In this document: piece after piece, positions 39,555 through 43,491 of the stretch
How positions within the stretch are numbered: the stretch's first letter is position 1
Layout of the letters: each line of letters opens with the position of its first letter
Source: Rhizobiaceae bacterium
GTDB taxonomy: Bacteria; Pseudomonadota; Alphaproteobacteria; Rhizobiales; Rhizobiaceae
Assembly (NCBI GenBank): GCA_023953835.1
Contig: JAMLJB010000001.1
Location: forward strand, 3,693,501-3,757,500
Reading direction: 5' to 3'
DNA: 64,000 nucleotides
The notes under the pieces: model-generated
Databases searched by the model: none
What the model was told of the DNA's origin: nothing
Seen by the model: only the letters and a program-made list of their open reading frames with translations
Program-made: the position numbers and the translations under genes

Positions 39555-40427
39555 ATGACTGAAAAGACGATTGAAACACTGAACTCGAAGCTTGATGAAC
39601 TGATTGCGGCAATCAGCCGGCTTTCGCCGCCACCGCCTCAACCGACCGATATTTCCACCGCCGACTGCTTTGTCTGGAACGCCGAAACCGGCGTGCTGGA
39701 CCCGGTCCAGCGCGTGAACCGCGTCGAAATCGAGCTGATCCGCGGGGTGGATCGGGTGCGCGACATACTGGTCGACAACACCGAACGATTTGCAGCCGGC
39801 CTGCCCGCAAACAACGTCCTGCTGTGGGGTGCGCGCGGCATGGGCAAGTCATCGCTCGTCAAGGCTTCCCATAGCGCGATCAATGCGGGACGTGCGCCTG
39901 CCGATGCCCTCAAGTTGATCGAGATCCATCGCGAGGACATCGACACGCTGCCGCGCCTGCTGGCCATCCTCAAGGCTTCGCCCTGCCGCTTCATCCTGTT
40001 TTGCGACGACTTGTCGTTCGACCACGACGACACGTCCTACAAGTCTCTCAAGGCAGCGCTTGAAGGGGGCGTCGAAGGCCGGCCTTCGAACGTGATCTTC
40101 TACGCCACGTCGAACCGCCGCCATCTGCTGCCGCGAGACATGATCGACAATGAACGCTCGACTGCGATCAATCCGTCCGAGGCCGTGGAGGAAAAGGTGT
40201 CGCTGTCGGACCGCTTCGGCCTGTGGCTCGGCTTTCACAAATGCAGCCAGGACGAATATCTGGATATGGTCGACGCCTATGTGCGCCATCACGACCTCAA
40301 GATCGACGCCGACCAGTTGCGTGCCGAAGCGCTTGAATGGGCCACCACGCGCGGCAGTCGCTCGGGCCGCGTCGCGTGGCAGTTCATCCAGGATCTCGCC
40401 GGTCGGCTTGGACAACCACTGGACTGA
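39555..40427 (+). CDS. DUF815-family AAA ATPase
   Basis: This 290-residue protein has Walker A GARGMGKSS (92-100) and Walker B RFILFCDDLSF (about 145-155), then a sensor-like ATSNRRHLLPRDM. These are features of the DUF815 group of AAA ATPases, conserved in Proteobacteria but without a settled function. The N-terminal 50 residues are helical. It starts divergently from yajC. Confidence 0.85.
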   Translation: MTEKTIETLNSKLDELIAAISRLSPPPPQPTDISTADCFVWNAETGVLDPVQRVNRVEIELIRGVDRVRDILVDNTERFAAGLPANNVLLWGARGMGKSSLVKASHSAINAGRAPADALKLIEIHREDIDTLPRLLAILKASPCRFILFCDDLSFDHDDTSYKSLKAALEGGVEGRPSNVIFYATSNRRHLLPRDMIDNERSTAINPSEAVEEKVSLSDRFGLWLGFHKCSQDEYLDMVDAYVRHHDLKIDADQLRAEALEWATTRGSRSGRVAWQFIQDLAGRLGQPLD

Positions 40428-40432
40428 ACGGG

Positions 40433-40771
40433 TCAGGCTGCCGTCAGTTGCCGGTGCTCTTCGTGCACGATCTCATCGAGAACCGTGTGCGGCGCAGTGC
40501 AGGCATAGTACGAGAAGGCGATATTCTCGTCCGCCAGTCCTGCCGTGCGGCAATCGGGACAATAGAAGTAAGGCTTCAGATCGGACGCGAACGCGCTGTG
40601 GTGCGGGCCGAGATAGCGCGTCAGAACGACGAGGTTCAGGTGCACGTTGTGATTGCATCCCGTGCTGGTGCAGCGGGCGCGAATATCGACACCGAGCGCA
40701 ATGTACTGTCCCAGCGTCCTGATGTCTGCCGGGTCCGGTACAGCGGGAAGTGGAAACAGATTGTGCCGCAT
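40433..40771 (-). CDS. Cysteine-rich protein of unknown function, paralogue 1
   Basis: I cannot name a family for this 112-residue protein. It has C34 and C39 (CTSTGC) and C71 and C74 (CPDC), likely a zinc-ribbon site, plus C91. Its neighbour at 40851-41198 has the same cysteine positions and an almost identical core (LVVLTRYLG... SDLKPYFYC), so the two are tandem duplicates. Both have structured leaders before their start codons. The function may involve nucleic acid or protein contacts through zinc, which is inference. Confidence 0.7.
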   Translation of the reverse strand: MRHNLFPLPAVPDPADIRTLGQYIALGVDIRARCTSTGCNHNVHLNLVVLTRYLGPHHSAFASDLKPYFYCPDCRTAGLADENIAFSYYACTAPHTVLDEIVHEEHRQLTAA

Positions 40772-40804
40772 GATCTAGGCACAAACTGACTCAACTCGCT
40801 CGTT

Positions 40805-40833
40805 TGGGCTAGCCCATACGGGAGTATGTGGGC
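40805..40833 (-). other. Foldable leader sequence of paralogue 1
   Basis: On the minus strand GCCC-A-CATAC pairs with GTATGGGC around a TCCC loop (40812-40833), a nine-bp stem with one bulged A. The same TGGGC can instead pair with GCCCA in the overlapping palindrome TGGGCTAGCCCA (40805-40816). It lies 34 bases before the ATG of the gene at 40771. Confidence 0.4.
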
Positions 40834-40850
40834 CAGCGCCAGCGCGATGC

Positions 40851-41198
40851 TTAGCCTGCTTTCGCCTGTACGACCTCGACCTGATTGTCCCGCTGCGCCG
40901 CCACGACGATCGAGTGTGGCGCGGTGCAGGAAAAATGGGTGAAGTCGATCAGCCGATCGTGCTGCCCCGCCTCCCTGCATTTCGGACAATAAAAATAAGG
41001 CTTCAGGTCTTCGGCGCGCGCGCCGTGGCCGGACCCCAGATATTTTGCCACGACCACGAGATTGACCCGAACGGTGTGGTTGCAACCCGTGGTGTCGCAT
41101 GAAGCCCAGACTTCATAGCCAAGCGCCAGATGCTGCCCGATTGTGTCGACGCTCAGCGGAAAGCGAACCTCCGGGAGCGGAAATAGATCTGATGTCAT
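40851..41198 (-). CDS. Cysteine-rich protein of unknown function, paralogue 2
   Basis: This protein of about 115 residues is homologous to the gene at 40433-40771, with C34, C39, C71, C74 and C91 in the same places (CDTTGC, CPKC, FSCTAPH). The start at 41198 (MTSDLFPLPEV) aligns with the start of paralogue 1. The frame is open further upstream, but into a hairpin-forming leader. Tail residues (QVEVVQAKAG) differ from the paralogue. No named family recognised. Confidence 0.7.
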   Translation of the reverse strand: MTSDLFPLPEVRFPLSVDTIGQHLALGYEVWASCDTTGCNHTVRVNLVVVAKYLGSGHGARAEDLKPYFYCPKCREAGQHDRLIDFTHFSCTAPHSIVVAAQRDNQVEVVQAKAG

Positions 41199-41553
41199 AA
41201 CTCTAACCCAAGAACTGACACAGCGCCCGCCGACCGAAGTCGGCGGGCACACTCAATACGGCTTCGGGCGGGCGCTAAGGGAAAGCCGCGATGAGTGCCT
41301 GATCCTAGTGCGTCCCCGAAGTGCAATACAATTCAGCACTTAGAGGAGGGTAGGCGATACACCCTACAGCCTTCGCTTGTGTCTGATCCCGCATCGCCGG
41401 GTCATCAGAGCGACATATGCCTCTGTGTAAGACAGTCGCGGCATATTCTTGCTTTGCACCAATTGCACTCTATGGCAGGCTGCATGCGCGGCCTGACTCC
41501 GCCTACCGATTCCTGCTTGCTTCGGCCGTACAAACGCCAACCGGGAGTTCGAT
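41199..41553. other. Intergenic region upstream of paralogue 2 and the DUF2934 gene
   Basis: These 355 bases carry the structured leader at 41222-41276 and otherwise no convincing gene. Divergent promoters for the paralogue and the DUF2934 gene should lie here. An AGAGGAGG-like purine stretch near 41343-41350 is not followed by a credible open frame. Confidence 0.4.
41222..41276 (-). other. Alternative hairpins in the leader of paralogue 2
   Basis: Read on the minus strand, GCCCGCCGAC and GTCGGCGGGC form a perfect 10-bp stem (41225-41248) closed by a TTCG tetraloop in the stable C(UUCG)G form. The last ten bases of that region (complement of 41222-41231) can instead pair perfectly with AGCGCCCGCC (complement of 41267-41276). 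The two folds exclude each other. The hairpin ends 26 bases before the ATG at 41198 and has no U-tract. Confidence 0.5.
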
Positions 41554-41823
41554 ATGAGCGCAAATCGTGACGAGCGCATAAGACAACGGGCACACGCTAT
41601 CTGGGATCGCGAAGGCAGGCCGGAGGGCGCTGCACAGCGCCACTGGCAACAGGCCGAACAGGAAATCGCCCAGGAAGACAGTGCGCCGGCCAAGAAGCCT
41701 GCCGCGAAGAAAGCAGCCGTGGCCAGGAAGCCGAAGGCCGAGGGCGCATCGACCAAGACGGCGGGTGCCGGCCCTGCCCTTGCGAAACGCTCCAAGGACG
41801 CGAAGAAGCCGGCGAAGGGTTGA
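41554..41823 (+). CDS. DUF2934-domain protein with Lys/Ala-rich tail
   Basis: This 89-residue protein starts with a DUF2934-like helix pair (RDERIRQRAHAIWDREGRPEG, then HWQQAEQEI). The C-terminal half is a Lys/Ala/Pro tail resembling histone H1 (KKPAAKKAAVARKPK). The tail could bind DNA, but no function is established. GGGAG stands just before the ATG. Confidence 0.75.
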   Translation: MSANRDERIRQRAHAIWDREGRPEGAAQRHWQQAEQEIAQEDSAPAKKPAAKKAAVARKPKAEGASTKTAGAGPALAKRSKDAKKPAKG

Positions 41824-41954
41824 ACGGGTTCGATTTTCACGGATCGCCGGACATGCACGTTGCCAGTTCGACCCGCGCTGTTGAAATTTTCGAGCCAAGG
41901 TGCCAAATCGAAGGGAATTGGACACGCCTGCGGGCAAGACCCTGAGACTTTGAC

Positions 41955-42782
41955 ATGGTTACCTATCTCGACGCCGAAACAGCGCCGCTGCGCAACACCG
42001 GCCAAATCCGCCTTTATGGGCCTGAGGCCTTTGAAGGCATGCGCAAGGCGTGCCAGCTCACGGCGCGCTGCCTCGACGAACTCGTGGAGCTTGTGACGCC
42101 CGGCGTGACGACCAACACGATCGACCGTTTCGTTTTCGAGTTCGGCATGGATCACGGCGCCCTGCCCGCCACGCTCAACTATCGCGGCTATACGAAATCC
42201 TCCTGCACGTCGATCAACCATGTGGTCTGCCACGGCATTCCCGACGACAAACCGCTGCGCGAGGGCGATGTCGTCAACATCGACGTCACCTATGTTCTGG
42301 AGGGCTGGCATGGTGATTCCAGCCGCATGTATCCGGTCGGCCAGATCAAGCGCGCCGCCGAGCGCCTGCTGGAAGTGACGCATGAGTGCCTGATGCGCGG
42401 CGTGGCCGCCGTGAAGCCCGGCGCACGCACCGGCGCAATCGGTGCGGCGATCCAGAGCTATGCCGAGCGGGAGCGCTGCTCAGTCGTGCGCGACTTCTGC
42501 GGCCACGGGGTCGGCAGACTGTTCCACGACGCGCCCAACATCCTGCATTACGGCTCGGCGCATGAAGGCGTCGAGATGCGCGAGGGCATGATCTTCACCA
42601 TCGAGCCGATGATCAATCTCGGACGTCCGCATGTGAAGGTGCTCTCCGACGGCTGGACGGCGGTGACGCGCGACCGCTCGCTCTCGGCGCAATATGAGCA
42701 TACGGTTGGAGTGACCGGCACCGGCTGCGAGATCTTCACACTGTCGCCCAAGGGGCTGGATCGGCCCGGCCTGCCCTCCTGA
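41955..42782 (+). CDS. map: Methionine aminopeptidase, type I
   Basis: This 275-residue enzyme removes the initiator methionine from new proteins. The dinuclear metal ligands are visible: D in NIDVTYVLEGWHGDSSRM (two), H in CGHGVGRLFHDAPNI, E in FTIEPMI and E in QYEHTVGVT. HGIPDDKPL with the substrate-side histidine precedes them. Length and order are typical, and radC follows, as in many relatives. Confidence 0.94.
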   Translation: MVTYLDAETAPLRNTGQIRLYGPEAFEGMRKACQLTARCLDELVELVTPGVTTNTIDRFVFEFGMDHGALPATLNYRGYTKSSCTSINHVVCHGIPDDKPLREGDVVNIDVTYVLEGWHGDSSRMYPVGQIKRAAERLLEVTHECLMRGVAAVKPGARTGAIGAAIQSYAERERCSVVRDFCGHGVGRLFHDAPNILHYGSAHEGVEMREGMIFTIEPMINLGRPHVKVLSDGWTAVTRDRSLSAQYEHTVGVTGTGCEIFTLSPKGLDRPGLPS

Positions 42783-42870
42783 ACCGAAATCCTCGGGAAT
42801 AATCACGTCTGCCCGCTTCAATACTTCTTAAGCGCACCCTAATATAATGGTGTGCGGCGCAGGATGAAGC

Positions 42871-43491
42871 ATGCAGGACGAGCAGGATGAGCGCGGTTTC
42901 TTCGGCGAGCAGCCGGTCAAGCCGCTGACAAGAGCCAAAGCCAAGACGGACAAGCCGCACTATCTCGGCCATCGCGAGCGCCTGCGCCAACGACTGCGCG
43001 ATGCGGGGCCGGAAGCGCTGCAGGACTATGAAATGCTGGAGCTGCTGCTGTTTCGCTCGATCGCGCGTGCCGACACCAAAACCCGCGCCAAGGCGCTGAT
43101 CCAGCGTTTCGGATCGCTGGGCGAGGTGCTGGGCGCGGCGCAGCACTTGCTGCGCGAAGTGGAGGGCATCGGCGACGCCGTCGCATTCGACCTCAAGGTC
43201 GTTGCGGCGGCCGCGCGCAGAATGGCCAAGGGCGAAGTCGCACAGCGCGAAATCTTGTCCTCGTGGCAATCGCTGCTGGACTATGTGCGCACCGCAATGG
43301 CGTATGAATCGAGGGAACAGTTCCGCATCCTGTTTCTCGACAAGCGCAACGCGCTGATCGCGGACGAAGTGCAACAGACCGGAACCGTCGACCACACGCC
43401 CGCCTATCCGCGCGAGGTCGCGAAGCGGGCGCTGGAGCTTTCCGCAACGGCTATCATCCTCGTCCATAACCATCCCACTCACCTTTTTTGA
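42871..43491 (+). pseudogene. radC: RadC, 3'-truncated by the integrative element
   Basis: The N-terminal UPF0758 region ([38 protein letters not shown]) and most of the JAB/MPN domain ([20 protein letters not shown]) are intact. The frame breaks inside the metal motif: after ILVHNHP the usual S-G-D-P-T-P-S is replaced by THLF and a stop. The lost end is about 40 residues including the metal-binding Asp, so the product of 206 residues is probably inactive. The break coincides with the start of repeats and an integrase gene, showing radC to be the insertion site. Confidence 0.85.
43465..43480. other. Left attachment junction in radC
   Basis: RadC homology stops at CATAACCATCCCA (43465-43477), encoding HNHP. 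What follows does not continue radC. A copy of this core should lie at the other end of the element, joined to the missing radC 3' end; it is not in this window. Confidence 0.6.

Follow-up and report, generated by a model that had tools for sequence, protein, structure and literature searches.

Within the window (the whole stretch of 64,000 nucleotides of a Rhizobiaceae genome that was analyzed, whose positions are used throughout), two genes on the minus strand, designated B and A, lie in tandem 79 bp apart, and a conserved RNA element precedes the first of them (Table 1). Their products share 54% identity over 98 aa with zero gaps, which bears out the claim of tandem paralogues made in a first-pass annotation of this sequence, and two additional paralogues (L003 and L004) occur elsewhere, bringing the number in this genome to four. 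Two other genomes of the genus were compared, namely the MAG Rhizobiaceae bacterium ACE_PRO28 (G002) and Mesorhizobium denitrificans LA-28 (G001). The tandem B-A pair is present in G002 as in the window, and three homologues were found in G001, none of which is a B orthologue by similarity (the best is 58% identical to B). At G001 locus L009, A directly follows the leader RNA with no B gene in between, and its reading frame is open upstream as far as an ATG within the RNA loop. The order of the genes on the upstream side (41554-43491) is common to the window, G002, and G001. In the 16 kb compared at each of the G002 and G001 loci, no match was found for the gene downstream of A (39555-40427) or for those beyond it. 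Thus, only one flank is syntenic, and the downstream flank of A seems, from these comparisons, to have been rearranged within the genus.

Table 1. Features of the B-A locus, in positions of the window.
Feature	Position	Strand	Remarks
Gene B	41198-40851	minus	115-aa product, small and cysteine-rich; G002 orthologue at 72% identity
Gene A	40771-40433	minus	112-aa product, paralogous to B; G002 and G001 each have an orthologue
Conserved structured RNA element (model R1)	41219-41297	minus	~79 nt, before gene B
5' domain (P1, P2, and C-rich apical loop)	41250-41297	minus	88-98% identical in three genomes
P1	41292-41297 with 41250-41255	minus	6 bp
P2	41282-41289 with 41258-41265	minus	8 bp
C-rich apical loop	41266-41281	minus	
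P3	41225-41248	minus	Terminator-like 10-bp hairpin with UUCG loop; two compensated pairs
Claimed alternative pairing (41267-41276 with 41222-41231)	41222-41276	minus	Judged not to be a functional switch
Leader A hairpin, between genes B and A	40809-40836	minus	In G002 with one compensated pair
Weak promoter-like pair TTGTAT-N18-TAGGAT	41302-41331	minus	By eye; inferred start near 41296
Conserved upstream block CCTCTAAGTGCTGAATTG	41329-41346	minus	Possible operator or extra hairpin

Five cysteines (C34, C39, C71, C74, and C91) occupy identical positions in A and B, as had been pointed out in the first-pass annotation. The first four are invariant in nine sequences from the genus and also in a set of 12 members with distant and phage relatives, which was our own choice (11 rows drawn from 22 loci that were read, the other 11 being left out), but C91 falls outside the signature because it is replaced in five of the nine genus sequences (Pro in four and Ser in one). 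The combination of CX4C and CX2C was observed in 20 of the 22 relatives read, the exceptions being L016, which has no CX4C (the first pair), and L019, which has CX2C in its place. This arrangement fits a single metal site that the four conserved cysteines would form. Relatives were detected in 32 of 394 genomes of the family (E ≤ 0.001) and in three phage records (Synechococcus phages Ssp-JY39 and Yong-M2-251, and Mesorhizobium phage Cp1R7A-A1). The phage proteins, which are also uncharacterized small cysteine-rich proteins, show homology over 71-86% of A with 35-43% identity, and both they and the Rhizobiaceae relatives are annotated as hypothetical proteins only. Three loci on viral contigs were matched by a distant-relative query (one being 100% identical to the query), and no relative was found when viral contigs were scanned with query A1 or a phage protein. 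Phage or viral loci that encode relatives of these putative zinc proteins are L072 (5001-5306), L073 (2929-3264), L074, L075, and L076. Scans of named genomes yielded four loci with query A1 and none with query P0001 alone, and plasmid searches yielded four weak records and, with the leader DNA, none. Neither A nor B reached a Pfam or NCBIfam cut-off or had a PHROG match, and the 12-member set gave only weak single-member matches to known families (best Pfam, PHD_Oberon, 6.8e-4; best PHROG, 0.0023). An AlphaFold model had a mean pLDDT of 74 with a confident core at approximately residues 20-90; a Foldseek search of the predicted model against PDB detected no solved fold at E ≤ 0.001, one viral model was matched at 9.7e-5 in a structure search, and a profile search of PDB sequences found none up to an E value of 1.

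In the gene-sense RNA, the elements before B follow one another in the order P1, P2, C-rich apical loop, and P3, with a long stem predicted 5' of the hairpin, and 26 nt separate the end of the stem from the ATG of B in the window. The leader folds more stably than its shuffled versions (z = -3.38, with 1 of 200 shuffles as good). Both the P3 hairpin and the alternative pairing that had been proposed to compete with it are exact 10-bp complements at the positions listed in Table 1. A hairpin of 8 bp or more together with a competing duplex of 10 bp or more was found in none of 1000 dinucleotide shuffles and, by the same criterion, in 2 of 2506 tiles of 102 nt covering both strands of the window; such a combination in the B leader is more than chance. 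The apical loop is mostly invariant in the three genomes, and its GCCCGCC segment is 22-45% paired in the folds, so that in prediction it would offer the conserved unpaired seed region expected of a trans-acting sRNA.

The same element recurs in G002 (before B) and G001 (before A), i.e., in all three genomes of the genus examined. Identity of the 5' domain among them is 43/49, 43/49, and 48/49, and coding sequences are 64-68% identical (one genome pair for B and three pairs for A). Considering that automatic alignments misplaced gaps in the hairpins, pairs were counted on a separate alignment, in which 98.6% of the 72 pair cells over three sequences are standard pairs. Two pairs of P3 have changed on both sides with pairing kept and one is broken in G002, whereas sliding the partners by 1-3 columns as a control left 29-47% of the cells paired and no double change. 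Taken alone, the built-in shuffle test of the pairs does not reach significance, with 53 of 500 shuffles attaining the observed score for three sequences only. One-sided changes in P1 and P2 (columns 1/49 and 15/35) give U-G/C-G and U-G/U-A on the gene-sense RNA and A-C mismatches on the opposite strand; because the U-G pairs are kept, the gene-sense RNA strand is indicated. When the sequences of the relatives are folded singly, pairing at the top of P2 is rearranged. The stretch from the hairpin to the start codon is conserved in neither length nor sequence. The possibility that the RNA is a coding sequence was rejected by eye, as 18 bases are invariant at every position and a one-base frame shift is present in G001. 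Selection on RNA structure, which had been suggested for both leaders, is thus supported by sequence comparison for the B leader, which appears to be a real structured RNA given its presence in three genomes, its conservation above that of the genes, the strand-specific U-G pairs, and the two compensated hairpin pairs that emerged from the covariation check proposed earlier, but it does not extend to a shared architecture, since the leaders of A and B differ.

To examine how widely the element is distributed, a covariance model (R1) was built from the three sequences and used with strict filters, which may hide weak relatives. R1 matched 3 of 394 genomes of the family, all from this genus and with one match per genome; in a sample of 377 genomes from the order, it matched the window's own genome only, the two congeners not being among the matches. 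No Rfam family matched the window, L037, or L039 at the gathering cut-off, and the one match at a lax threshold (lncRNA, on the other strand and outside the leader, E = 1.9) is not credible. A wider DNA search gave matches in 84 of the 394 genomes at E ≤ 0.1, and those beyond the genus are only 18-54 nt long. A 21-22-base loop/stem stretch recurring in other genera (L080/G235, L082/G407, and L085/G215) was taken as chance, because the 22-mer lies within long open frames in the three places that were read. Among known RNAs, the element would come closest to small structured RNAs that expose a C-rich loop and carry a terminator-like hairpin. In outline it can be compared with PmaR of Agrobacterium tumefaciens, a rhizobial trans-acting sRNA that is described as 'spoon-like' with a long stem and a C-rich single-stranded loop (PMC6234868). 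The likeness lies in the long stable stem and the single-stranded loop with C-rich stretches; the element here differs in that it adjoins a protein gene and has an extra terminator-like hairpin.

All three genomes carry an identical block, CCTCTAAGTGCTGAATTG, ahead of the RNA, with a variable stretch of 32-34 nt between the two. The promoter-like pair, kept as TTGnnT-N18-TAnnnT in three genomes (by eye), sits in the variable stretch and the last bases of the block, and the two together look like a weak regulated promoter. The near-constant length of the variable stretch, as promoters have, was counted in favor of a promoter that makes an sRNA. Consensus scans of 40300-41700 detected no sigma-70 site and no terminator; TTTTTT follows P3 in G001 only (one of three genomes, by eye), and sequestration of the ribosome site was likewise judged only by eye. 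The block before the RNA also belongs to an imperfectly kept dyad, AAGTGC-N11-GCACTT (41319-41341). With up to three mismatches allowed, the block has 8, 15, and 10 matches in the three genomes, versus 1, 1, and 4 for reversed controls. However, four sites away from the RNA locus were read and all are located in open frames of 452-712 codons, and therefore no regulon was inferred.

The leader of A has a bulged hairpin whose sequence differs from that of B (z = -1.85, with 7 of 200 shuffles as good). In G002, one G-U pair of this hairpin has become A-U and one pair is compensated (in a hand register, the MAFFT gap being elsewhere), and in G001 the 5' arm is not recognizable and the fold differs. 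By the perfect-duplex criterion, also with limits of 5 and 4 bp, no competing pairing was found in leader A, and its supposed alternative, GGGCTAGCCC, is a loopless palindrome. The notion that each paralogue has its own switching leader does not hold, as the A and B leaders differ in both sequence and shape and R1 has a single match in the window's genome and hence, with its strict filters, none before paralogues 3 and 4. Part of the leader A hairpin, TATGGRCTRG, is also present upstream of paralogue 4 in two genomes (40809-40818; L004 1840-1849; L011 1836-1845; L010 1448-1457), where the G001 copy forms an irregular hairpin and the copy of the window's genome takes a different fold. It looks as if this motif might be a common element older than the duplication.

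The explanation to which we give about an even chance is an sRNA or leader module that is confined to the genus and keeps a single constitutive fold, and whose function we infer. A weak and probably regulated promoter at approximately 41302-41346 would make a structured RNA of ~80 nt starting near 41296, and the same RNA would become the 5' leader of the B-A pair upon read-through. Its single stable fold is predicted to present the C-rich loop on two stacked stems (14 pairs), followed by the GC-rich terminator-like hairpin. The loop would most likely be a recognition site for a G-rich target RNA or protein, and the hairpin would most likely end or protect the short transcript, with part of transcription entering the putative zinc-protein genes. 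Retention of the RNA before A in G001 without B was counted in favor of an sRNA and against a leader acting in cis only. Counted against the sRNA or leader module are the limitation to three sequences, the shuffle test of the pairs, the U-run in one of three genomes, the negative scans, the rearranged P2, and the lack of any copy outside the genus.

It is also possible, with clearly less confidence on our part, that the element acts in cis only and that there is no separate sRNA, its hairpins protecting or insulating the B-A mRNA or binding a protein (possibly the zinc proteins) to tune translation. Its location directly upstream of B, or of A in G001, in all three genomes and the single R1 match in each of them agree with such a role. 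Against it, the hairpin-to-start stretch varies in length and sequence, and the RNA is better preserved than the proteins under its supposed control and persists in G001, where B was not found. We consider it unlikely that the conservation reflects a role of the DNA itself (as operator, binding sites, or promoter), the RNA fold being incidental. Although the hairpin is also a DNA palindrome and the upstream sequence at 41319-41341 forms a dyad in the window, the changes in P1 and P2 keep pairing on the gene-sense RNA strand only, with A-C mismatches on the other, and the two-stem domain, at ~48 nt, far exceeds the size of a typical operator.

The switch proposed in the first-pass annotation, in which the loop segment would compete with the hairpin for 41222-41231 and toggle B, with an analogous arrangement before A, is very improbable. 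In its favor, all 10 bp of the alternative match exactly in the window, which would not be expected by chance, and in the relatives a core of six (G001) or seven (G002) contiguous pairs can still form. Over the three sequences, 26 of 30 cells pair, and one outer pair (columns 23/77) has changed on each side. However, the alternative is intact in the window only, with 3 of its 10 pairs broken in at least one relative and pairs lost in both, so that the B leader does not have the two mutually exclusive conserved pairings of a fold-switching leader. Column 69 of the shared 3' arm has changed in G001 together with its hairpin partner (column 56) but not with its alternative partner (column 31). 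Imposing the alternative through its five core pairs is less favorable by 12.3, 11.6, and 11.3 kcal/mol in the three leaders. When growing transcripts were folded in steps of 3 nt (from 40 to 100 nt), the probability of the alternative came out at 0.0000 at every length, the completed 3' arm pairing with its hairpin partner and G001 passing through an unrelated fold at 67 nt. The contested strand is the 3' arm of the hairpin, the last part to be transcribed, by which time its local partner is already available, whereas in usual antiterminators the competitor does not contact the last-made strand. Attenuators and riboswitch expression platforms resemble the B leader in having a GC-rich hairpin with a competing complementary segment, but here it is the 3' arm, and not the 5' arm, to which the competitor binds; the competing pairing is partly conserved and 11-12 kcal/mol weaker, and a U-run is present in one of three genomes. 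We therefore rejected the switch because the alternative is broken, energetically worse, absent from growing folds, and dependent on the last-made strand; leader A fails the switch test as well. Equilibrium folding leaves room for a ligand or protein that might stabilize the alternative fold.

A more speculative extension of the sRNA or leader module, which we regard as a long shot, is that a lineage-specific sRNA gene, under stronger selection than its host genes, has been joined to a zinc-protein family shared with phages and gates its expression via leaky termination, and that these proteins may bind the RNA in turn, forming an RNA-protein autoregulatory unit. The locus also suggests that a visible, exact 10-bp 'switch' can arise incidentally from the repetition of a GC-rich word, which is testable with three genomes. 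If confirmed, the element would be a structured RNA without an Rfam match, limited as far as searched to one Mesorhizobium-like genus, and a case in which a leader RNA has been retained while the gene behind it differs.
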